A stretch of 27,367 bases of DNA from a virus: positions 1 to 27,367 of IMG/VR virus record IMGVR_UViG_3300021090_000367. One strand, written 5' to 3'. Position numbers and translations under genes: made by a program. Of this stretch, positions 1,194 through 26,186 are shown in pieces. Numbering within the stretch: position 1 is the first letter of the stretch; each line of letters opens with the position of its first letter. The notes under the pieces are model-generated. The model was not told the origin of the DNA and ran no database searches. It saw only the letters and a program-made list of their open reading frames with translations.

Positions 1194-3527
1194 GTGGCTG
1201 AAATTGCCCCGATTCATGGGCTAATTGAACTCACCGACAACTTTACAAGCGAACTAGGGCTTGCAAGGGCTGCGCTTAGCAATTTCACCAAAGAGAACCA
1301 GCAATCTTTGACGGCGGTTGCCGTCGTCACCGGCACCGTTGCGGCCGGTATCGCGGCGATCGGTGTGGCCGCAATCGAACTCGGTAAGCGCGGATCTGAC
1401 GTCAACGATCTGCGCGCCACGATCGAACAGTTTGCAGGCGGTGCCAACGAAGCGAAAGCGGCGATGGATGCCCTGCGCGCAGGCACGCTAAATACTGTTG
1501 ACGACTTCACGCTTGCGTCAAATGCCGCGCATCTTCTGAGCACTGGTGTAAAACTCACGGCGGCGGATTTCGGCACACTCGGAGAAGCGGCATTTGTTCT
1601 GCAAAATCGCGGTCTTGGTGGCACTGCTGAACAACTGAAACTAGTGAGTGATGCGCTTGTTACTGGGAGAACACGCGCGTTAGCAATGTCGTTGGGTGTC
1701 ATCGCCGTTGACGACGCTGAAGAAGCATACGCGAAGACGCTTGGTGTTACGGCGGAACAGCTGTCAGAAAGCGGGAAAGCGGAAGCGAAGCGCATCGAAG
1801 TGCTTCGCATCCTTCGCGAAGCAACGGTTGCAGCGGGCGAACAGCAACGCGACTTTGGCGAAGAATTCGAGTTCGCATCGGCGCAGGTTCGCAACTTCAT
1901 CGACGATCTAGGTTCGTCAATCGCATCGTCTGACGTGTTCTCTGCTGGATTGCGCGCCGTTGGTGAAGCGGTTGCTGGTGCCTTCGATAACAACAAGGCG
2001 AAGGCAATCGAGAACATTACCAGCTTGCTTGAAGATGGTGCGGTCAAACTGATCGACTTGGGACAAGTCGCGATTACAGCTGCACGTATTTTTGAAGGTT
2101 CGTTCGGCGGTGTTCGCACTGTCATCGCGTTTGTCTCAACTGGAATCGTCGGTGTTGCACGTCTGCTTGCCGAAACAATCGCGGTTGCGGCTGGTGCGGC
2201 TGCAAAGCTGCATTTGATTTCGCCTGAAACGTTGTCAGAAATTCAATCGTCGCGTGAAGAACTTCGCGGTATGCGTGCGGATCTTGCACTGCAGACGGAA
2301 GAAGCGGCAGCTAGTGTTTTAGGCCATACGAAGTTTGGCGAAGCACTTGATGTGCTCAGCCAGAATATGAACGACGTGCGAACCGCGATGATGGCGGCGA
2401 AGAACGCGACTGGAGAACAGACGGAAGCGTCGGGCGCGTCGGCGGAAGCAGCTGCAGCCAATGCCGCCGCGCAAGCGGATCTCACGTCCAAGATGATCGA
2501 TCAAACCAAAGTCGCTGCTGCGATGACAAAGAGCAGCAAGGAACTCAGCACGATTTGGGACGATTACTTTAAGGCGGTTGCGCGGTCGTCTGGCACGTCA
2601 CGCGATCAACAGATCGCAGACATTGAGGCAACATTCAATTCGCAAGTTGCTTCGTTGGACCATCTTGATCCACTGTTCAATGAGAAATACAAGGCTCTGC
2701 GTGCGACTGCGAACGCAAACCTGACCGCTATTAGCGTCGACTGGGATAGCGTTCGCGATCGAAGCATCGAAGCCTTGCAAGAAACCGCAGACAAGGCACA
2801 CGAAACTTACGAAGCGATGATTGATAGCGGGTTGCACTTCACCCGCGAAGTTCTGGACGAACAGTTGAAGAAGTGGAAGGATGCGCAGGCGGCTGCAAAC
2901 GGCTGGGGAACGGACGCGAAAAAGGCAGTTGCTGATGTCACCAAGGAAGTCAAGATCCTTGATAGTGCTTGGGCAGATAACGCGGCTGCAGCAGCTGCGT
3001 CGATCAACGGAACAACGATCATGGTTCGCACGTTGCACGGTGACTTGATCAGCCTGCAAGAAGCGATGAAGTTGAAGCAGACAGGCGGCAGTTTCGATGT
3101 CACGTCTGCGAACTTTGGGCAAGCACTCACGGATTACTTGACAAAAGGCGGCTTTACATCGGGTTCGGAAAATCGACAGTTCCGCGATCCGATGGGACTG
3201 GCGAAGAAGGGCTATTCGTTTTCTGAAGTCATCAAATACGCCTTCGATCCGAAACAACAAGGAACGCTACCACCACCACAAGGCCCGCGCATTCCGGGTT
3301 TCATACAAGGCGGAACGGTAGATATCAAGGTTGGCGAAGGTGGGCCGGAAACAGTGCGCGTCCCACTCGGATCCACCGTGTATCCAACCGGCACGGGTCC
3401 GAGCGGTGGAACGCAAGTCGTTAACTTGAACTTTCAGGTGAACGGAACAGCCGTGCAAACCGCCGAAGCGATCAAGAAAATCATCATGTCGCAGCTGAAA
3501 TCAGTGCGGCAATTCGGTTCGGCTTAA
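1194..3527 (+). CDS. Tail tape measure protein
   Basis: A 777-residue protein starting at GTG, with GAAGAAAGGG just upstream and a 2-nt gap from the chaperone stop. It is the longest gene apart from the tail hub and follows the chaperone pair, as a tape measure must. Its composition is Ala/Glu/Lys/Gln-rich and largely alpha-helical, with hydrophobic stretches near residues 42-63 and 305-340 and long amphipathic coiled-coil-like regions (about 350-600). The C-terminal part (about 680-777) changes to Gly/Pro/Thr-rich sequence. Tape measures set tail length, and their hydrophobic segments may insert into the host membrane during DNA ejection. At roughly 1.5 angstrom per residue it implies a tail a little over 100 nm long, which is a rule of thumb only. 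Confidence 0.88.
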   Translation: MAEIAPIHGLIELTDNFTSELGLARAALSNFTKENQQSLTAVAVVTGTVAAGIAAIGVAAIELGKRGSDVNDLRATIEQFAGGANEAKAAMDALRAGTLNTVDDFTLASNAAHLLSTGVKLTAADFGTLGEAAFVLQNRGLGGTAEQLKLVSDALVTGRTRALAMSLGVIAVDDAEEAYAKTLGVTAEQLSESGKAEAKRIEVLRILREATVAAGEQQRDFGEEFEFASAQVRNFIDDLGSSIASSDVFSAGLRAVGEAVAGAFDNNKAKAIENITSLLEDGAVKLIDLGQVAITAARIFEGSFGGVRTVIAFVSTGIVGVARLLAETIAVAAGAAAKLHLISPETLSEIQSSREELRGMRADLALQTEEAAASVLGHTKFGEALDVLSQNMNDVRTAMMAAKNATGEQTEASGASAEAAAANAAAQADLTSKMIDQTKVAAAMTKSSKELSTIWDDYFKAVARSSGTSRDQQIADIEATFNSQVASLDHLDPLFNEKYKALRATANANLTAISVDWDSVRDRSIEALQETADKAHETYEAMIDSGLHFTREVLDEQLKKWKDAQAAANGWGTDAKKAVADVTKEVKILDSAWADNAAAAAASINGTTIMVRTLHGDLISLQEAMKLKQTGGSFDVTSANFGQALTDYLTKGGFTSGSENRQFRDPMGLAKKGYSFSEVIKYAFDPKQQGTLPPPQGPRIPGFIQGGTVDIKVGEGGPETVRVPLGSTVYPTGTGPSGGTQVVNLNFQVNGTAVQTAEAIKKIIMSQLKSVRQFGSA

Positions 3528-3541
3528 AGGAGATCGGTATC

Positions 3542-4096
3542 ATGAGTTTGCAATCGTGGCAAGAAACGTTGATCACGTCGCAGGTTGATGGCGCAGCACT
3601 GACCGCCGCTGCCGCTGCGACGTGCATTCCAGCCGCTGCGAAATACACCTTTCCACCGAATTCGTTTGCGATTGGCAAGCAGTATCGGGTTAAGGCGTCG
3701 GGTCGTATTTCGTCCGTTATCACGACTCCCGGAACGGCGCGATACGATCTGCGGCTTGGTGGCACGGTGATCTTCGACAGCCTTGCGATTCTGCTTGACA
3801 CGGCGGTTGCTGCAACTACCGTCGGTTGGCTGCTGGATATTTTACTGACGTGCCGCGCGATCGGGGCAACGGCAAACTTCATGGGGCAAGGGCTGTGGAC
3901 GTCCTACAATATCTTGGGCACTCCGGCCACACCGCCGAAGGGTGCGTTGTCAGCGATCTTGCCGTGGAACAGTGCGCCTGCTGTGGGCGGTAACGTCGAC
4001 TCGACGACGTCGTTGCAGCTGGATATGTTTTTCACGCAGACCGTTGCCACGGGTTCGATGACGGTGCATCAGTATTCCGTTCAGGCGTTGAACTAA
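3542..4096 (+). CDS. Putative small tail protein
   Basis: A 184-residue protein with a strong ribosome binding site (AAAGGAGATCGG) 15 bases after the tape measure stop. It is rich in Ala, Thr and Gly, with alternating hydrophobic residues suggesting a beta-sandwich; no signal peptide or enzymatic motif is seen. The stretch around residues 45-75 (Gly/Arg/Ser/Thr, then a regular strand pattern) resembles virion structural proteins in general. Position between tape measure and tail hub makes a distal tail or tail-tip component likely. No family is recognised, so the role is inferred from context alone. Confidence 0.6.
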   Translation: MSLQSWQETLITSQVDGAALTAAAAATCIPAAAKYTFPPNSFAIGKQYRVKASGRISSVITTPGTARYDLRLGGTVIFDSLAILLDTAVAATTVGWLLDILLTCRAIGATANFMGQGLWTSYNILGTPATPPKGALSAILPWNSAPAVGGNVDSTTSLQLDMFFTQTVATGSMTVHQYSVQALN

Positions 4097-10427: not shown

Positions 10428-11792
10428 CTAGTTGTGTCCGTCTTCGATGAACACCGACACTTCGCCCGCGTTCTTCGTGACGTATTCCATGAGGATTTGC
10501 CCGCCCGCCTTTTCGGCGGCGTCGGCAATCAGTGCCATGCTGTCATCGTCCAGCGCATTGCCGTTCTTGATGCACAACAGCTTCAGATCAGGATTCATTT
10601 TGAAGCCGATTGCCACGCTGACCCGGATCTGTTCGGCGGTCGATGCCTGCTTCAAGGCAATGTCATTGAACGTTACGACGCCGGTATGCGAGATCCCCAA
10701 GCCGTCAACAGGGAACTTGGTATCTCGAATCGTCTTCGCGCGCAACGCATCAAGTCGCGTTACTTCGGCGTCTTGTTCGTCGTATTGCTTCTGAATCGCG
10801 ATCACCTGATTCATGACGGCACGGCGTGCGACGTTCGCCCGAATCTTGCTGTTCGTATCTTCCACGACGTGAACACGTTCCTGAATTGCCGTCGTGTCAG
10901 GAATCGCAATCAACGCATGGTGCGCGGCGGTTTGCAGTGCGTTGACCTTGTCTTCTTGCGCGGAGTATGTCAGATGCCCGACGTTGATCGCCTTCACAGC
11001 GATTTCAAGCTGTTGTTGTAGTTCAGCGATTCGGACTCTGAGTGCATCCGCACTGGCAACAGCGGTATCGATCTGCTGTTGCATCGCACCAAGACTGATG
11101 CGCGCTTCCATCGCAACTTTTTCAGCAGTGGCGGCGGTCTGTCGTGCCACTTCTGCCGCGTCGGATTCGGCCATCAACGCGGCAAGTGATACTTCTTCGT
11201 CAGGCACGCCGTCGTATTTCGGCATGGCGTCAAGCAGCACTTGTTGATCTTTATGCTGCTTGTTGTAAACGGCACGGCGGTCGTAAGCGATGCTGCGCGC
11301 TTCATCGTGTGCTCTGAAGTCCAGTCCAACCAGCTTCCGCAGAACTTCGGCTTGGTCACGTTCTTCGGCGTCGTTGAACGCCGTAGGATCAAACGACAAA
11401 TTGCTGATGACACTGTCAAGCAGACGCTGCGCGGAGTCTTGCTTCACACCGTCTTTGTTCTTGACGATCAGGCGTGATTTCGTTTCGCCGTAAGCCGGAT
11501 CACCGGACGCTGGTTGCTCCGTTAGCAAGTCACGCCAGAATTCGCGGCGCACCTTCAAGGCGTCAAGATCCAGTTCGACGAATCCGCGCTGTTCTCCGCG
11601 CTTCAACGGTTCATCAGGGCACAGGGCTTTTCCGCCCAACGCCATTGCGACGGCATGCAGCACACTGGATTTGCCTGCGCCGTTCTTGCCGCCGATGGTC
11701 AGCAGCCGTTTTCCGTTTTCCCACGTGAATTCAACGGCGGTCAGACGCAGAATGTTTGACGCCTGCAGACTGACGACGCGCAAGTTTTCCAT
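10428..11792 (-). CDS. SbcC/RecF-like ABC ATPase
   Basis: A 454-residue protein with a Walker A loop GGKNGAGKSS at 34-43 and an N-terminal strand pattern typical of SMC/RecF/SbcC ATPases that lean on DNA ends. A coiled-coil region spans about 205-330 and is much shorter than in SbcC. Near the C-terminus there is a degenerate ABC signature (STAEQIRVSVAIG, about 383-396) and a Walker-B-like segment at 403-417 ending in three Asp. Such phage ATPases act in recombination, repair or end processing, often with an SbcD-like nuclease, which is not found in this window. The ribosome binding site CAAGGAGACAGC is strong and a consensus -10 lies about 60 bp upstream. A RecN-like role is an alternative. 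Confidence 0.8.
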   Translation of the reverse strand: MENLRVVSLQASNILRLTAVEFTWENGKRLLTIGGKNGAGKSSVLHAVAMALGGKALCPDEPLKRGEQRGFVELDLDALKVRREFWRDLLTEQPASGDPAYGETKSRLIVKNKDGVKQDSAQRLLDSVISNLSFDPTAFNDAEERDQAEVLRKLVGLDFRAHDEARSIAYDRRAVYNKQHKDQQVLLDAMPKYDGVPDEEVSLAALMAESDAAEVARQTAATAEKVAMEARISLGAMQQQIDTAVASADALRVRIAELQQQLEIAVKAINVGHLTYSAQEDKVNALQTAAHHALIAIPDTTAIQERVHVVEDTNSKIRANVARRAVMNQVIAIQKQYDEQDAEVTRLDALRAKTIRDTKFPVDGLGISHTGVVTFNDIALKQASTAEQIRVSVAIGFKMNPDLKLLCIKNGNALDDDSMALIADAAEKAGGQILMEYVTKNAGEVSVFIEDGHN

Positions 11793-14736: not shown

Positions 14737-16248
14737 TCACTCCGGGTGAACGTAAATCAAGGAGTTCTTCGCGCGGGTGATCGCAACGTAACAGATGTTC
14801 CGTTCTTCCTGATTGTTCGTGCGCAGCGACTTCGCCAACACAAACACGCGGTTAGCTTCAAGCCCCTTCGCGCGATGCACAGACGAACACGTGACGATGT
14901 CTCCCGCGCCGATGCCCTTGTCAGCGAACAGCGTTTCAATGCGGTCGATGACGTCTGACACGCTGTGCGCGTTGTCCGTCAACGACAACAGCATGTCAGC
15001 CTTGTCGTTGATTTCGTCAAGCAGCGTGATATACGGCGGGTTTTCCTTGTCCTTGCCTTCGAACTTGACATCAAGCCGCGTCTTTTCGCGAATGCGCCAC
15101 GCTTCGATCCCGCGCAGCAGTTCCGGAATGCTGCGCGCCTTCATCTGTTGCAGCAGCGTTACAAGACCCTTGCCGATGTTGCGACCATTGATGCGCGCAC
15201 GCTTGCCGCTGCGCAGAAGCGAAATCGCAATCGACACAAGCGGCGCGTTACTGCGCGACAGGATGAAGTCTCCCGGCTGCGCTTCCTTCTGCAACGCATC
15301 AATGACAATGTTGCGCACTTCGCCTTCCGGGTTGTCGTCGCCTGCTTGGAAGTCGGGAACGAACACTTGCGCTTCACGAACGACCGCTTTGCAGCAGCGA
15401 TACGTTACGTTTAACGGGAGTTCAACCGCGTTTAGTTCAGTCTTGAGACGGTCAAGTGCTTCGCTGTCCGCGCCGCGAAATGCGAAGATCCCTTGTTTAT
15501 CGTCGCCGACGACGATCACCCGTTTCGCCACTTTGACAGCAATTTCAAGCTGCGTCGGGTTCATGTCCTGCGCTTCGTCAACAATGATGTCATCGACCAC
15601 TTGCCGCAACCAACCGTTGCGCACCGGCAAGAACAGCATGTCACTTCCGTCGATGCCTGTCTCCGTTGGTTCTTTCGACGCGGCATATTCCATCGCGTCA
15701 AGGGCCTTCTGTTCGATGAACACCAGATCGAAACCTTCCGCGATCATCGGCAACGTCGGTTCACACTCAAAACGGATGGCAAGATCCGTCAGATCCCCGA
15801 TCATGCGGGCGTGTGCGCTGATCTCCCGCCCTTTGGTGTGAAGCTTGGTGATCAGCTTCTTGACTTCCTTCGGCGTGCTAGCATCGCAGACTGCAGCGGT
15901 AACGAAGTCTGCGCGCTTCGAATCCTTCATGTCTTCGACTTGCACGTTAGGCCACATACGACGAACGACGCGCAGGCCGATCGCGTGAAGCGTAGCAACG
16001 GTCACGTCGTATCCGACGAACCGCGTTGACAGTTCGTCTGCAATCGCCCGACCGAAGGCGGCAACCGCGATCACACGCTTCGGATCGGCGCGCAAGAGAC
16101 GACGCACCGCTTCACAAATCGTGGTCGTTTTCCCCGTGCCCGCCCGTGCGCGAACAACAAGATTGATCAGATAGAAATTGATGAAGTGGTCGAAAATGTC
16201 GATCTGTTTGCGTGACCAATCCTGAATCGTCGTGGTAGCTGCTGACAT
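14737..16248 (-). CDS. UvrD/PcrA-like superfamily 1 DNA helicase
   Basis: The start is placed at ATG 16248 behind AAGGGAGATAGA, giving 503 residues. SF1A motifs are visible: Walker A ARAGTGKTT (34-42), motif II VDEAQD (223-228), motif III GDDKQGIFAFRGAD (248-261), motif IV-like TYRC (282-285), motif V near VHRAKGLEANRVF (about 462-474) and motif VI YVAITRAKNSL (487-497). SF1A enzymes unwind DNA 3' to 5' in repair, recombination and replication restart. At 503 residues it is shorter than UvrD (about 720), with reduced 1B and 2B subdomains, typical of phage versions. A Dda-like or RecD2-like role cannot be excluded. It ends 8 bases before the next start. Confidence 0.9.
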   Translation of the reverse strand: MSAATTTIQDWSRKQIDIFDHFINFYLINLVVRARAGTGKTTTICEAVRRLLRADPKRVIAVAAFGRAIADELSTRFVGYDVTVATLHAIGLRVVRRMWPNVQVEDMKDSKRADFVTAAVCDASTPKEVKKLITKLHTKGREISAHARMIGDLTDLAIRFECEPTLPMIAEGFDLVFIEQKALDAMEYAASKEPTETGIDGSDMLFLPVRNGWLRQVVDDIIVDEAQDMNPTQLEIAVKVAKRVIVVGDDKQGIFAFRGADSEALDRLKTELNAVELPLNVTYRCCKAVVREAQVFVPDFQAGDDNPEGEVRNIVIDALQKEAQPGDFILSRSNAPLVSIAISLLRSGKRARINGRNIGKGLVTLLQQMKARSIPELLRGIEAWRIREKTRLDVKFEGKDKENPPYITLLDEINDKADMLLSLTDNAHSVSDVIDRIETLFADKGIGAGDIVTCSSVHRAKGLEANRVFVLAKSLRTNNQEERNICYVAITRAKNSLIYVHPE

Positions 16249-16294
16249 TCTATCTCCCTTGCGGCGCGCTATTTTGTCGCGCCGACTTGCGCGT

Positions 16295-16468
16295 TTACTT
16301 CGCCGAAAGAAAGGGAAGCCCGGTGACGCGATAGCGGTTGCCCTTCGCATCTTCGACGTCGACCGTTCCGAACGGCCAGACGCGAACGATCGTCATTGCG
16401 AAACCACGAACGATCATGGTTTGACCCTTCTTCGGTGCTGCCTGCGTCGTCGTCGTCTTCTTTGCCAT
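16295..16468 (-). CDS. Hypothetical 57-residue protein, predicted leaderless
   Basis: A 57-residue frame with ATG at 16468. It has a Lys/Thr-rich N-terminus (MAKKTTTTQAAPKK), then a compact beta-strand-rich part (MIVRGFAMTIVRVWPFGTVDV, then NRYRVTGLPFL) resembling a small SH3-like or OB-like barrel. The ATG follows a TTGACT-17-TAGAAT promoter by 6 bases, so transcription should begin at or next to the ATG and no ribosome binding site is present. The same arrangement, with the same flanking repeat, precedes the 55-residue gene upstream. The other frame over this region (71 codons) lacks such support. No family is recognised. Confidence 0.7.
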   Translation of the reverse strand: MAKKTTTTQAAPKKGQTMIVRGFAMTIVRVWPFGTVDVEDAKGNRYRVTGLPFLSAK

Positions 16469-16474
16469 ACAGAG

Positions 16475-16503
16475 ATTCTATCAACGTTGGTTTTACAAGT
16501 CAA
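16475..16503 (-). promoter_or_regulatory. Sigma-70 promoter, leaderless type (copy 1)
   Basis: Read leftwards: TTGACT (16503-16498), a 17-bp spacer, TAGAAT (16480-16475), then CTCTGT and the ATG at 16468. Spacing is ideal and each hexamer differs from consensus at one position. The normal start site, about 7 bases past the -10, falls on the A of the ATG. The element lies in a direct repeat shared with the promoter at 16719-16747. Confidence 0.85.
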
Positions 16504-16514
16504 CGAAAAAGAGC

Positions 16515-16538
16515 GGCAAGACGGCAATTCAAAATTGC
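16515..16538 (-). terminator. Hairpin preceding promoter copy 1
   Basis: Read leftwards, GCAATT pairs with AATTGC around a 3-nt loop (16538-16524), followed by CGTCTTGCCGCTCTTTTT. It lies 7 bases past the stop of the 55-residue gene (16545), so it could end that transcript just before the next promoter. The stem is short and A/T-rich. Confidence 0.45.
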
Positions 16539-16544
16539 ACGGAA

Positions 16545-16712
16545 TTACGCGGCTTCGATCCGCTCAATGTGCAGCGCGTTCAGCACGTCATACAGACGAT
16601 TGATCGCGGTCTGGTTCTGGATCGCCGGAATGCCCGTCAGGTGCGCAGCGGCGTTTTCGCGGTGCCGAAGTTCCGTGGTCGCTTCGTCGATTCGCTGCGT
16701 GGTGTTTGCCAT
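16545..16712 (-). CDS. Hypothetical 55-residue helical protein, predicted leaderless
   Basis: A 55-residue frame with ATG at 16712. The sequence is predicted to be a helical hairpin: TTQRIDEATTELRHRENAAAHL, a Gly-Ile-Pro turn near residues 27-29, then NQTAINRLYDVLNALHIERIE. There is no signal peptide, metal site or membrane span. As for the neighbouring 57-residue gene, a TTGACT-17-TAGAAT promoter ends 6 bases before the ATG and no ribosome binding site exists. Its last codons (GAAGCCGCG, stop) are part of the direct repeat and match the end of the SNF2-like helicase gene. No family is recognised; a small dimeric regulator or inhibitor would fit but is speculative. Confidence 0.68.
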   Translation of the reverse strand: MANTTQRIDEATTELRHRENAAAHLTGIPAIQNQTAINRLYDVLNALHIERIEAA

Positions 16713-16718
16713 ACAGAG

Positions 16719-16747
16719 ATTCTATCTCACGTTTATTTACGAGTCAA
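16719..16747 (-). promoter_or_regulatory. Sigma-70 promoter, leaderless type (copy 2)
   Basis: Read leftwards: TTGACT (16747-16742), a 17-bp spacer, TAGAAT (16724-16719), CTCTGT, then ATG at 16712. Hexamers, spacer length and the CTCTGTATG start region are identical to copy 1, while the spacer sequence has diverged, which points to selection on the promoter and start itself. Confidence 0.85.
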
Positions 16748-16758
16748 CAAGAAAAGCA

Positions 16759-16782
16759 GGCAAGACGGCAATTCAAAACTGC
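16759..16782 (-). terminator. Hairpin preceding promoter copy 2
   Basis: Read leftwards, GCAGTT and AATTGC (16782-16768) can pair with one mismatch, followed by CGTCTTGCCTGCTTTTC. It lies just after the SNF2-like helicase stop at 16791. It corresponds in position to the hairpin at 16524-16538. Confidence 0.35.
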
Positions 16783-16790
16783 ACAGAATG

Positions 16791-18467
16791 TCACGCGGCT
16801 TCGGTGAGTTCAGACAGCCGGGCAACCCATGCTTCTTGCGTCCAATTGGCGATCTGTTCCTTGTCTCGACGGGCCTGCACGATGACGGCATCATACGTTT
16901 TCTGACCCTTTGGCCCGACAGCGACGATGTCATAGTATTCAACAGGCGACGTCTGACGCGGTCCATACACGCGATCCCCGGATTGCAGGAACTTCCGCAA
17001 GCTATGGTCATACGAGTAATTCACGCTGGTGTGAGACGCCGACATGTCAAGCCCGAAGCTGCCTGTTCCCAGCGTGCCGCACACCAACACCGGGCCTGCA
17101 GGCGCAGTGCGCGGATCAAGGATCGCTTTTGCGTGCGCGCGATCCTTCTTGGATTGCCCGCCGTGCATTCCGGCAACGATCATCGTCGGAAACTTCTTCG
17201 TGGCTTCAAAAACAATGCGCAGCGTTTCCGGCATGAAGCGGGACCACACCACCATTTTCAGATTGGGATCCTGTGCAAGCTTGCTTTCGATCAGCCACAA
17301 CAGCACGTCTAATTTTTCGCGGCCAAGTTCCTGCACCCTCGAAACCGGCTGCGCGGCACCGATGCCCGAACCTTCGCAATCTTCACACCCGCTGCCGTCG
17401 CAGTTCGGGCACACGGGATCTAATCCTGTGTCTTCGATCCCGCCGATGAACCCGCCTGTGATTTGTGACAGACGCATAAACTTTGTGATCGCTTGCTGCG
17501 AAATACTAGCAAGCCCGTTTTCGAGTTCATACACCATGTCATCACGCATCTTGCGATACGCGTTCCATGCGGCGGATCCGAGTGTGGCGGTTAACGTAAC
17601 CGGCTTCAACTTTACCGGCATGTCATCGCAATCAATCTGCAGACGGCGCACGGTGAACGGCTTGAACCGCGCTTGTAAATCGTCGATGTTCTTCCACGCA
17701 ACGATCTTCATGACCGCTTTACCGTAAGGCGTTAAAACAGGTTTCTGAGTTCTGGCACTGACAACAGGTTCTTGAACGGCGTAACGTGACTTGAAATGCG
17801 TGATGAATTTGCATTCAAGAACGGACTGATGAAGCATGTTACCTTGAGAAAACATATGGATCGGCGTATCCATAGGCGTCCCGTTCATCAGCAGAACGCG
17901 CCCGCACTTCTGCCGCAACGTCAGACAGGCATCAAAGGTTTCTGAATCGTGATTCGTGATCGCCCCTGATTCGTCGAGAACCAACATGGTTTTTGGCCCG
18001 CAGTATTTCAGCAGCGTCTTCAGGATTTCTTCGTTCTTTTTCTTGGCGTTCTTCGGGCGGTAAGGCCGCATGAATTCATAATTGGTGACAATCCAGCGCA
18101 GCGGTTTCGTTTGGTTGTCGGGCAATGCGTCAGGACCGACGCGCCACTGATGCACGTCGCTGTGAAACTCCGTCACCAACGCAGGCGTTTTCAACCACAG
18201 GTGTTCAAGGAGTTCGCCGCCCAGTGCATCGGCAGTCGGACCAACCCAAACGCTGCGCACAGGTTCCGGAGCAATGACGATGACACGATCGATGATGCCA
18301 CGATCGTAAAGGAACTGCGCCGCGTCGATCGCGATCTTGGTTTTGCCGGTTCGCATTTCGGATGCGATGAAGAACCACGGGCGATCAACGACAGTCTGTG
18401 TGTCGATGTATTGATGTTTGAACGGCGTCAATCGCGAGTGCGACCAATCCAACATCTGCGCCGTCAT
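16791..18467 (-). CDS. SNF2-like superfamily 2 helicase/ATPase with zinc-knuckle insert
   Basis: The start is placed at ATG 18467, overlapping the stop of the membrane protein gene (ATGA), giving 558 residues. SF2 motifs: Walker A SEMRTGKTK (36-44), motif Ia-like IVIAPEPV, motif II LDESG (164-168, in place of DEAH/DEAD), motif III MNGTP (194-198), and motif VI QSGDRVYGPRQ (495-505). The C-terminal lobe matches SNF2-type phage helicases. CPNCDGSGCEDCEGSG (353-368) adds a four-Cys zinc knuckle between the lobes. Such proteins translocate on duplex DNA and help replication or recombination-dependent initiation. The DESG form of motif II also occurs in other SNF2-like phage proteins. Confidence 0.87.
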   Translation of the reverse strand: MTAQMLDWSHSRLTPFKHQYIDTQTVVDRPWFFIASEMRTGKTKIAIDAAQFLYDRGIIDRVIVIAPEPVRSVWVGPTADALGGELLEHLWLKTPALVTEFHSDVHQWRVGPDALPDNQTKPLRWIVTNYEFMRPYRPKNAKKKNEEILKTLLKYCGPKTMLVLDESGAITNHDSETFDACLTLRQKCGRVLLMNGTPMDTPIHMFSQGNMLHQSVLECKFITHFKSRYAVQEPVVSARTQKPVLTPYGKAVMKIVAWKNIDDLQARFKPFTVRRLQIDCDDMPVKLKPVTLTATLGSAAWNAYRKMRDDMVYELENGLASISQQAITKFMRLSQITGGFIGGIEDTGLDPVCPNCDGSGCEDCEGSGIGAAQPVSRVQELGREKLDVLLWLIESKLAQDPNLKMVVWSRFMPETLRIVFEATKKFPTMIVAGMHGGQSKKDRAHAKAILDPRTAPAGPVLVCGTLGTGSFGLDMSASHTSVNYSYDHSLRKFLQSGDRVYGPRQTSPVEYYDIVAVGPKGQKTYDAVIVQARRDKEQIANWTQEAWVARLSELTEAA

Positions 18468-18667
18468 TTGCGAAACAACGCCTTGATCAAGTTGATCACA
18501 GAAGCTATCGGCCAACAACCCGCGATCAACAACGACACAATCAACCGTTCACGCTGATCGGATCCGTCGATTGACCGCACGACTAGAACGGCATAGCTGA
18601 AGAACAACCACACGACAGCAAGTGCCGCGTAGATCAGCCACCAAGGAATGAATACGTTAAACGTCAT
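18464..18667 (-). CDS. Small membrane protein with two transmembrane segments
   Basis: A 67-residue protein with ATG overlapping the ThyX stop (TAATG at 18669-18665). Two hydrophobic segments are clear, about residues 6-30 (WWLIYAALAVVWLFFSYAVLVV) and 42-62 (LIVSLLIAGCWPIASVINLI), with a charged loop (DGSDQRER) between and a Lys/Arg tail (KALFRK). Both termini would lie on the same side; positive-inside rules put the C-terminus in the cytoplasm. Size and two spans fit a class II holin, but this spot inside a replication operon is unusual for one. An inner-membrane exclusion protein or replication anchor is possible. No family assigned. Confidence 0.68.
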   Translation of the reverse strand: MTFNVFIPWWLIYAALAVVWLFFSYAVLVVRSIDGSDQRERLIVSLLIAGCWPIASVINLIKALFRK

Positions 18668-19509
18668 TACGCCCCTGCTGCGCGTTGACCTTGAACGAAC
18701 AGTTCCCAGGTTCGCGGATATCGCTGCGCGATGTATTCTCCCACGATGTTTGCAAAAAGTCGAATTTCAAGCTGCGCGTCGGGTGCCATGCGCAGCGTCA
18801 AGAACGCCAACCAGTTTCGAAGGTTGGTGCTGGCGCGCATCCTTGAATAACGCCCAACCGGGAGATCAGCGCACACGCCCGGCAATCGTGCAATCTCTTT
18901 CGGAATGCCGATGGTCAAGCCGTCCTGATATACGCGTTCGGCGTATGCGTAAACGTGCCCAAGGGCATCAAGCCAAGCCAACACTTCATCGTGTGTCGGC
19001 ACGCGATTCCCTGTGGCGTTTGCTTGCCGGTTGGTGCCTGCAACGACGATGCACCGATCGATCGTTGGTATGTAGTTCATGTCAGGCAGCGGCGTATAGC
19101 GCGCACTCATTTCGTTATAGCTCTGCGTGCGGTGCCGGTGCCACTCACGGAATACGAAGATCGGTGCCTGCACTTCGATGATCATGCCCGCCATTTCGAA
19201 CGGCGTTGCATGCTTCTTGGTGTAGAGACGGCGCAACAGTTTCTTGTCTCCCGGATCTTTGCCGGTGCCTTCGCACGTCGTGCAGTCCTTTCGCGACTGT
19301 TGGTGAACACGGCTGATGTAAAGCCCATCGTGCCAACCAATCGCGTTAGCTTTTACACAGGCTTTACAGGATCCGCCGCCCCAACCTTCAAAACCTTTGT
19401 TGGTCGACATGCGGGCCGCTTCAACGATCCGTTCGTCGCTTCCCCAGTGTTCAACGACGCCGATGTATCCGTGATCTAACACGTCACGGCGATCCAACAA
19501 TTCAGACAT
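18667..19509 (-). CDS. thyX: FAD-dependent thymidylate synthase ThyX with zinc-knuckle insertion
   Basis: A 280-residue protein from ATG 19509 (AAGGAG 5 bases upstream, TGATG overlap). It carries the ThyX signature RHRxxSxNExSxR (RHRTQSYNEMSAR, residues 125-137) and the flanking HATPFE and REWHRHR context. ThyX methylates dUMP to dTMP using methylenetetrahydrofolate with FAD and NADPH, unlike ThyA. Between the N-terminal AARMS element and the KKHATPFE segment there is an insertion of about 50 residues with Cys48, Cys51, Cys76 and Cys79, a probable zinc knuckle absent from typical ThyX. The start, signature and C-terminal helix appear intact, so it is probably active. Confidence 0.92.
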   Translation of the reverse strand: MSELLDRRDVLDHGYIGVVEHWGSDERIVEAARMSTNKGFEGWGGGSCKACVKANAIGWHDGLYISRVHQQSRKDCTTCEGTGKDPGDKKLLRRLYTKKHATPFEMAGMIIEVQAPIFVFREWHRHRTQSYNEMSARYTPLPDMNYIPTIDRCIVVAGTNRQANATGNRVPTHDEVLAWLDALGHVYAYAERVYQDGLTIGIPKEIARLPGVCADLPVGRYSRMRASTNLRNWLAFLTLRMAPDAQLEIRLFANIVGEYIAQRYPRTWELFVQGQRAAGA

Positions 19510-25291: not shown

Positions 25292-25463
25292 CTTCAGGCG
25301 GGAGTTTCGCAGCTTCGTCGGTGTGTTCATCGCACAAATGCCGATACTTTCGAACGCGGTTATTGTCGTCGTCACGAACGATGATGTAGCCTGTTGCCTT
25401 GCCGCAATACTTCGCAGGGAACGTGCAAGGTTCAGACAGCAGCCAACAACACGTGTGTTTCAA
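25275..25463 (-). CDS. Small Cys-rich protein, possible zinc binding
   Basis: A 62-residue frame starting at TTG 25463 with GAAGGGTGA 4-5 bases upstream. Candidate metal ligands are Cys5, Cys6, Cys13, Cys20, Cys44 and His47 (CDEH). The middle holds an alternating GYIIVRDDDNNRVRKYRH strand pattern, and the tail is acidic (PPEDDEAG). The Cys/His arrangement resembles small ribbon or knuckle proteins of early phage operons. The rare TTG start is supported only by the ribosome binding site. About 110 bp without a gene lie upstream. Confidence 0.58.
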   Translation of the reverse strand: MKHTCCWLLSEPCTFPAKYCGKATGYIIVRDDDNNRVRKYRHLCDEHTDEAAKLPPEDDEAG

Positions 25464-25573
25464 AATGTCACCCTTCGGACTACCGATCCAGCGTGGCCGG
25501 ATACTACCCGCAATCGCGTGGATTAGTTCTCACACCGCGCCTAGTTTCCCATCGGGTTTATGGGCAGCGTAAC

Positions 25574-25693
25574 TTAGAAGAACGGAACGGGTTGACTTGC
25601 AAGATGAACAAGGTAATTGACGGCAGCAACCCATCCCAGCACCGCCAGCGATCCGACGACGGCCCAGAACAACAGGCGCAACGCCTTCTTCAC
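25574..25693 (-). CDS. Small single-span membrane protein
   Basis: A 39-residue frame from GTG 25693, overlapping the stop of the upstream gene (GTGA). It has a basic start (MKKALR) and one strong hydrophobic span (LLFWAVVGSLAVLGWVAAV, residues 7-25), with a short polar tail. The charge pattern puts the N-terminus in the cytoplasm. Together with the preceding two-span protein it forms a pair of tiny membrane proteins at the head of a transcription unit. A holin/antiholin pair or inner-membrane exclusion factor is possible but not supported by motif. Confidence 0.58.
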   Translation of the reverse strand: MKKALRLLFWAVVGSLAVLGWVAAVNYLVHLASQPVPFF

Positions 25694-25851
25694 CGATGTT
25701 GAACCTTGCTGGCAAACCAAAAGAACGGCAACGCGATCCAGCACAACACCGCGCCTTGCAGGATCGTCGTGATGTTATCGGACGGCGCAGCGATCACAGC
25801 ACCCGTGACCACGAACACCAACCCGATCCCAATCAGGACTTTGAATAGCAT
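25690..25851 (-). CDS. Small two-span membrane protein, holin-like
   Basis: A 53-residue protein from ATG 25851 with CAAGGAGTTCCA upstream, a strong site; a longer frame adds 13 residues from ATG 25890 but lacks a ribosome binding site. Two hydrophobic segments are visible, about residues 4-20 (KVLIGIGLVFVVTGAVI) and 28-46 (ILQGAVLCWIALPFFWFAS), joined by a polar APSDN turn, with a basic KVQHR tail. Small size and two spans fit a holin or a regulatory membrane protein; a replication-block position is against lysis. It is the first gene after the long leader. Confidence 0.62.
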   Translation of the reverse strand: MLFKVLIGIGLVFVVTGAVIAAPSDNITTILQGAVLCWIALPFFWFASKVQHR

Positions 25852-26125
25852 TGGAACTCCTTGAAAGAATGCACGCCGTTCATTTCTCATGAGCAGACGA
25901 ACGGCGAAGACTGCGCTTGTTCGGCGATCACCCTTTATCTCTTTGCCCGTATAGTTTCTGCATCTCTCATTATCGGCATAGCGTATCGTTTTCGCATGTT
26001 GGTTGTTCTAACACGCGCGTAACAACTGCCGCTGTTACGTGTCATCGACACACCGCCCAACCAAGCTGAGCGCAACGCACAGGGTGTTCTAGCCACGGGC
26101 CTAGCGAGCCTTACCCGCCGAAAGG
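25852..26125 (-). other. Long untranslated leader without recognisable gene
   Basis: This stretch lies between the predicted start site of the promoter at 26133-26161 and the ATG at 25851. I see no tRNA, no gene above 20 codons and no known riboswitch. A 64-66 nt element at 25999-26064 folds as TTGGTTG/CAACCAA outside and ACACG/CGTGT plus TAACA/TGTTA inside. A second inverted repeat lies at 25874-25906. Together they suggest a structured leader RNA or a small untranslated RNA. Confidence 0.55.
25874..25906 (-). terminator. Inverted repeat in the leader, possible attenuator
   Basis: CGCCGTTC (25874-25881) and GAACGGCG (25899-25906) form an 8-bp stem. Read leftwards, TGCATTCTTTC follows, then the ribosome binding site of the 53-residue gene. 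A smaller CTCATGAG dyad (25886-25893) lies in the 17-nt loop. It could act as a transcription attenuator for the whole downstream block. Confidence 0.45.
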
Positions 26126-26132
26126 TGAACGG

Positions 26133-26161
26133 ACTTTACACGGTGTTTTATGGTAAGTCAA
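26133..26161 (-). promoter_or_regulatory. Sigma-70 promoter downstream of the polymerase gene
   Basis: Read leftwards: TTGACT (26161-26156), 17-bp spacer, TAAAGT (26138-26133). Spacing is ideal and the -35 is the same TTGACT as in the two leaderless promoters. It lies about 25 bp beyond the polymerase stop and would transcribe the long leader, the membrane proteins, nuclease, dnaN and beyond. Confidence 0.78.
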
Positions 26162-26186
26162 GCTTGATTTTCAGGCTTTTACCTAA

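Follow-up and report, generated by a model that had tools for sequence, protein, structure and literature searches.

A duplicated promoter and start codon, probably giving leaderless mRNAs, in front of unrelated small genes of an uncultured bacterial virus

The cI gene of phage lambda is a leaderless phage gene when it is expressed from PRM, and the distance from the -10 box to the ATG in PRM is 6 nt. The promoter-stem-loop (PeSL) cassettes of T4-like phages, reportedly described by Arbiol in 2010 and Comeau in 2014, are said to be mobile and to shuffle small genes. In phage PY54 the mRNA 5' ends of both cI and cro were mapped to the AUG, and these leaderless genes have strong promoters (PMC4488713). 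The T4 cassettes are cited in passages of PMC4503421 and PMC5931544. In cluster K mycobacteriophages some of the genes have SAS and ESAS repeats at their starts, in part with an upstream inverted repeat, and the 13 bp SAS, GGGATAGGAGCCC, which contains a ribosome-binding site, is thought to act in translation initiation (PMC3203893). The -10 box stands directly before the ORF in 21% of the primary starts of S. coelicolor (PMC4895711), and about 25% of M. tuberculosis transcripts are leaderless (PMC8485053; PMC12340547).

The locus described here lies in a linear IMG/VR virus record of 27,367 bp, IMGVR_UViG_3300021090_000367, from an uncultured bacterial virus, and the whole of this record, probably a genome fragment, is what we call the window. 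Its cassettes combine two known kinds of element, leaderless phage genes and mobile promoter cassettes, and we know of no system in which a promoter is duplicated together with the start codon that directly follows it, leaving no leader. Lambda cI and PY54 cI and cro have the same host-type promoter and a start at the A of the AUG, in the window only a predicted one, but those are single regulator genes with mapped starts, while the window repeats the promoter and the ATG before unrelated small genes. The PeSL cassettes are similar in that a repeated intergenic promoter is located beside different small genes, in the window as well as in its relatives G006 and G009. However, the window has no terminator-like stem-loop, and the start codon is part of its cassette, with no leader before it. 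As with SAS and ESAS, the window repeats stand at gene starts with an inverted repeat upstream, but they are promoters lacking a ribosome-binding site, and the 13 bp SAS with its ribosome-binding site was looked for in the cassette sequences and was absent. In L008 (3161-3704 and 7572-9822) we observed a recurring start-associated sequence, CGTAAGGAGGATCACATG with variants, containing a stop, a ribosome-binding site and a start, which is reminiscent of the cluster K SAS. Leaderless genes of Actinobacteria and Deinococcus-Thermus also have the -10 box adjoining the ORF, and the -10 type of the window is reminiscent of Actinobacteria, but those are host genes with no duplicated cassettes.

The plus strand of the window carries apparent tail genes, and the minus strand a replication block with DNA polymerase A, beta clamp, ThyX, a SNF2-type helicase, a UvrD-like helicase and others. 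In the direction of the minus strand, the SNF2-type DNA helicase (phrog_62, 16791..18518) is followed by a 78 bp gap, the small gene sm55, a 76 bp gap, the small gene sm57, a short gap with AAGGGAG, and the UvrD-like helicase (phrog_1967, 14737..16247), for which AAGGGAG is an ordinary ribosome-binding site. Just ahead of that site there is a GC-rich hairpin, GGCGCGACAAAATAGCGCGCC, at 16262-16284, with no T run and a fold that is not above shuffles. The replication genes have only about 25–34% protein identity to database phages, the matches are distant and mostly to siphovirus-type phages, and no T4-type gene set was seen in the 27,367 bp fragment. Close kin were recovered by alignment-based searches, of which those with helicase alignments were the productive ones: G001 (L091), G002 (L092), G006 (L298), G007 (L296), G008 (L297), G009 (L299) and G010 (L300). 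The UvrD alignment search gave distant relatives only, single-sequence searches with the helicase and with sm57 found nothing, and a search for a prophage or host record of the helicase was also negative. An actinobacterial host was suspected from the TAGRNT form of the -10 boxes and from matches to Arthrobacter and Gordonia phages, but a WhiB gene was looked for and not found.

The two direct repeats are about 115 bp long, lie on the minus strand with a start-to-start distance of 244 nt, and are 81% identical (95/117 aligned columns). A sequence-only reading had noticed the duplication and put its length at about 95 bp. The alignment makes it longer, because each copy starts within the final codons of the gene before it (GAAGCCGCGTRA, stop included), and it extends through ATGGCAAA of the next gene. 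The gene ends within the repeats are GAAGCCGCGTGA in the helicase and GAAGCCGCGTAA in sm55. Copy 1 (16698..16812, minus strand) contains the helicase 3' end and stop, an upstream dyad, a T-rich stretch, the promoter, CTCTGT and ATGGCAAA, and copy 2 (16454..16566, minus strand) a helicase-like 3' end that gives sm55 its stop, a dyad, the promoter, CTCTGT and ATGGCAAA. The upstream element is GCAGTTTTGAATTGC in copy 1 (16768..16782, minus strand), an imperfect dyad, and GCAATTTTGAATTGC in copy 2 (16524..16538, minus strand), a perfect 6 bp dyad, and both are possible operators. The RNA folding of the two gaps was ordinary, with z of -0.07 and -1.1 against shuffles and no T run after a stem. The folding not being significant, a stem-loop or terminator reading of the repeats was dropped.

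Both copies have TTGACT-17-TAGAAT-CTCTGT-ATGGC, and in a scan of the window with no mismatch allowed TTGACT-17-TAGAAT was found at just these two sites, so the identity of the elements reported earlier was borne out. With up to 3 mismatches, TAGAATCTCTGTATGGC was confined to the two repeats, and 0/100 shuffles gave two matches. The 17 nt spacers agree at 8/17 positions ungapped, and at 12/18 with a compensating +1/-1 gap. With 9/17 positions changed and the gaps compensating, the spacing is conserved while the sequence shifts. Diverged spacers between fixed hexamers, spacing and start had also been part of the sequence-only reading, and this holds, except that the hexamers, taken by themselves, show no significant excess of identity over the remainder of the repeat (12/12 vs 83/105 identical, p=0.12). 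Taken together with CTCTGTATG they are (21/21 vs 74/96, p=0.012). The exact cassette sequence was found in no other record of the IMG/VR and bacterial genomes searched, which means that what recurs is an architecture within the lineage and not a widely shared sequence.

Promoter 1 (16719..16747, minus strand) and promoter 2 (16475..16503, minus strand, with TG before the -10 box) were the top sigma70-like sites in the 18 kb scanned, with 10/12 matches each. The -10 box is 6 nt from the ATG at both sites, and by sigma70 geometry RNA polymerase should thus begin at the A of the AUG, at 16712 and 16468, a prediction that agrees with the start proposed earlier. In both -10 boxes the TAG is a stop codon in frame with the small ORF and 12 nt ahead of its ATG, so neither ORF can begin farther upstream. 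There is no usable Shine-Dalgarno sequence at either start, the anti-Shine-Dalgarno pairing being -2.8 kcal/mol (12 nt away) and 0, where random sites have a median of -1.7. AAGGAG with a pairing of -8 to -9 kcal/mol is present at many genes of the window, and the earlier statement that the genome otherwise uses strong ribosome-binding sites is broadly right.

Both small ORFs look coding, judged from a codon usage of 0.37 and 0.33 bits per codon, with a training median of 0.28 and at most about 0 in the other frames. The 55-residue sm55 (16545..16712, minus strand) is predicted to form a helical hairpin, it has no alternative ATG inside the ORF, and its last residues, IEAA, and its stop are supplied by cassette copy 2. 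The 57-residue sm57 (16295..16468, minus strand) is, with low confidence, a small beta-strand protein with no clear homolog; there was none above shuffles in G006, and the fold search gave no match below E=0.1. It has an in-frame internal ATG at codon 18 (16417) with GAAGAAGGG 7 nt upstream (-5.3 kcal/mol), and dual initiation is therefore possible. In E. coli, mRNAs are known that combine a 5'-terminal AUG with a second, downstream start of the Shine-Dalgarno type (PMC4965119). The codons ahead of codon 18 also score as coding. The possibility that sm55 and sm57 are paralogs was ruled out, as their products are alike only in MAN/MAK, and the downstream genes are, as had been claimed, unrelated.

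A sister virus, G006 (IMGVR_UViG_3300021090_000045), has an identity to the window of 67% for the helicase, 66% for uvrD and 76% for the methylase. In this virus uvrD follows immediately after the helicase with no sm55 or sm57 between them, so the two small genes are either extra in the lineage of the window or lost in the sister, and the two genomes are compatible with both. The gap is 90 bp and contains TTGACA-17-AATACT and an ordinary GGAG before uvrD. A homology of this gap with the cassettes was suggested by GTGCAGTTT right behind the stop, but local alignments just as good were obtained in 127 and 209 of 2000 shuffles, which is not significant, and the homology was discarded. Scanning for ORF starts 6–8 nt after a -10 box revealed a repeat pair at another locus of G006, TTGACA-17-TAGAGT-6-ATG at 31392 and 30835 on the minus strand. 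These are direct repeats of about 89 nt, each starting at the stop of the preceding gene (TCGTAG, TCGTAA), and they precede products of 97 and 96 residues that are apparently unrelated. To judge from the sequences, the design is that of the window, while the locus, the sequence and the genes are all different. A TGCAC-N5-TGCAC motif is located upstream of the promoter in both of these cassettes and also in the helicase-uvrD gap of the sister.

Two further features of the window are missing from G006. One is an exact 23 nt inverted repeat, CGGGCGTGTGCGCTGATCTCCCG, at 15806-15828 and 18859-18881, which joins the coding regions of uvrD and thyX and has a chance expectation of about 5e-6. The other is a stretch of some 720 bp that separates the polymerase from the next conserved gene (25460-26185), holding a promoter-like TTGACT-17-TAAAGT at 26161, about 240 nt without an obvious gene, and then a 66-residue ORF.

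The sister does have a relative of sm55, a 101-residue protein (L373:13844-13539) encoded about 17 kb from its helicase, with an ordinary AGGAG ribosome-binding site. Residues 1–51 of sm55 are 42% identical to residues 40–91 of this protein, in its C-terminal half, with a score of 83 as compared to 50 for the best of 60 shuffled queries over all reading frames. The homology sets in at the ATG of the cassette and extends to ER51, directly before the IEAA and stop of copy 2. Since these limits match the borders of the repeats, sm55 sits between the copies, with its ATG from copy 1 and its stop from copy 2. The two genomes are compatible with an ancestral state of either 55 or 101 residues. It is conceivable, though doubtful, that the cassettes serve as a gene-birth device, in which a fragment between two of them would gain a promoter and ATG on one side and a stop and the next promoter on the other, and be expressed at once, as a leaderless gene, with no ribosome-binding site having to evolve. 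By this device sm55 would have been made from a gene like the one for the 101-residue protein, and it would have been reused in the relatives. A similar scar is present in L091, where a 56-residue gene is followed by 25 bp that repeat the 3' end of the helicase gene, together with its ribosome-binding site. In L092, a 72 bp repeat (11184-11255 and 11576-11647) consists of the in-frame 3' end of a gene and a strong hairpin and terminates a 54-residue ORF. By eye it truncates the start of an apparent metallophosphoesterase (IADQHFGHG), for which Pfam gave no match. The near-identical repeat in L092 may also be an assembly error; the window repeat, only 81% identical, is too diverged for that.

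G009 has four TTGACA-17/18-TAGAAT promoters within 1.35 kb, with an ATG exactly 6 nt after each, and the genes behind them, of 91, 75, 66 and 63 residues, are mutually unrelated. Three of the four cassettes are 73–80% alike from -45 to +6, with little in common beyond the promoter region. G008 has several such promoters at 6–8 nt, two or more of them at exactly 6, and one precedes an apparent ATP-dependent DNA ligase (by eye). With 20–53% identity, these do not seem to be recent copies of each other. The same promoter scan showed no leaderless-type promoters in G001, G007 and G010. Among promoters with at least 10/12 matches in the window and its relatives, an ORF-ATG was found at offset 6 in 10/22 (offsets 3–30), and in the relatives only in 8/19. 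Under a uniform null over offsets 3–30 the latter has a P of about 1e-7, or 0.0016 after repeats in the same genome have been collapsed. Nearly all these promoters have G as the third base of the -10 box, which at offset 6 makes the box itself a TAG stop in frame with the ORF. As the 6 nt spacing recurs before other genes in G006, G009 and G008, it is not the coincidence of one duplication. A search of related phages for the cassette in front of other small genes, as the sequence-only reading had proposed, thus recovered the architecture in these three viruses, and not the exact sequence.

A wider sample of IMG/VR, consisting of stretches with TTGACA-17-TATAAT and any ATG 2–30 nt downstream, gave 170 sites. 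Among these, ORF-ATGs were found 14 times at offset 6 and 9 times at offset 7, as compared to 1.1 per offset at 9–19, and permuted triplets and GTG/TTG had no comparable peak at offset 6 in the same sample. An older locus set with looser promoters showed a weaker excess, 8 at offsets 6–7 (P 0.017). The peak implies that the leaderless geometry, as read from these sites, is a general phage feature, sharpened in the lineage of the window. In five of the IMG/VR sequences (L211, L233, L234, L245, L270) TATAAT was seen 6–7 nt ahead of the ATG of apparent T4-type replication genes, by eye a clamp loader, primase, RNase H and DNA polymerase, which suggests that some T4-like phages may have leaderless replication genes. 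Another viral contig of IMG/VR, L013, has a CRISPR-like array at 2650-3700, with the 36 nt repeat GTATCAGAGGCAGCTCATAGCCTTACAATATGAGAC every 71–76 nt or so.

We consider it likely that a leaderless promoter cassette has been copied within the genome, expressing different small genes. Each repeat would be self-contained, consisting of the end and stop of the preceding gene, the upstream element, a promoter of host type (sigma70/SigA) and the start codon. RNA polymerase would begin at the A of the AUG, the small gene would be made from a leaderless mRNA, and ribosomes would recognise the 5'-terminal AUG with no need for a Shine-Dalgarno sequence, while the in-frame TAG of the -10 box would block read-in from the preceding sequence. 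Promoter and start codon move together, and a copy set behind a stop codon could therefore turn any following coding piece into a gene. The cassettes would have been copied locally in the lineage, with a different small gene each time, and in the window the piece sm55 would have come to lie between two copies, one giving promoter and ATG and the other the stop and next promoter. We infer from sequence where transcription starts, that translation is leaderless and that recombination spread the cassettes. The earlier idea of a portable expression cassette gains support from the sister locus without small genes, the sister's own pair, and the relative of sm55 with an ordinary ribosome-binding site elsewhere, as far as the architecture is concerned.

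The promoters could also be real with translation not being leaderless, if transcription starts a few bases inside the ATG or past it, or if most ribosomes come by way of read-through mRNA; sm57 would then be translated from codon 18 and sm55 weakly or not at all. The ribosome-binding site of the internal ATG, the known dual-start mRNAs of E. coli (PMC4965119) and the promoter-like site in the helicase-uvrD gap of G006, which precedes uvrD with a leader and Shine-Dalgarno sequence, are all consistent with this. However, no other ATG is available to sm55, whose homology begins right at that of the cassette, the first codons of sm57 look coding, and the exact 6 nt spacing is kept in three relatives, which makes this reading improbable. 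Even less probable is that the repeats are chiefly binding sites of a viral regulator, duplicated for shared regulation and not for portability. The upstream part with its dyad, GTGCARTTTTGAATTGCCGTCTTGCC, is conserved as well as the promoter, and the TGCAC-N5-TGCAC motif of the sister occurs at three places, but the upstream elements differ among the viruses, the G009 cassettes share little outside the promoter region, and the common denominator is the promoter and its distance to the ATG. Such a role is compatible with the cassette explanation rather than exclusive of it.

A simple tandem duplication at this locus, in which one copy decays and the promoter is conserved only through the short time elapsed, would fit repeats that are adjacent, in the same orientation, 81% identical overall and with hexamers not significantly better kept. 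But the genes behind these cassettes are unrelated, and the duplicated unit is thus the signal and not the gene. Furthermore, the spacing was preserved through compensating gaps, both ORFs look coding, and the same kind of event took place separately in G006 and G009, and we give this explanation the least weight of all.

The recurrence of the leaderless cassettes in the relatives, together with the 6–7 nt peak in IMG/VR, suggests that leaderless genes are likely commoner in phages than one would gather from the few textbook examples. Gene callers that require ribosome-binding sites may miss such genes or place their starts wrongly. Phages keep gaining small genes of obscure origin, and these newcomers must somehow come to be expressed. 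With a promoter, a start codon and an upstream stop of its own, and no need for a ribosome-binding site, a unit of this kind would solve the problem in one step, and the cassettes look like a reusable means by which these viruses bring newly gained small genes to expression.
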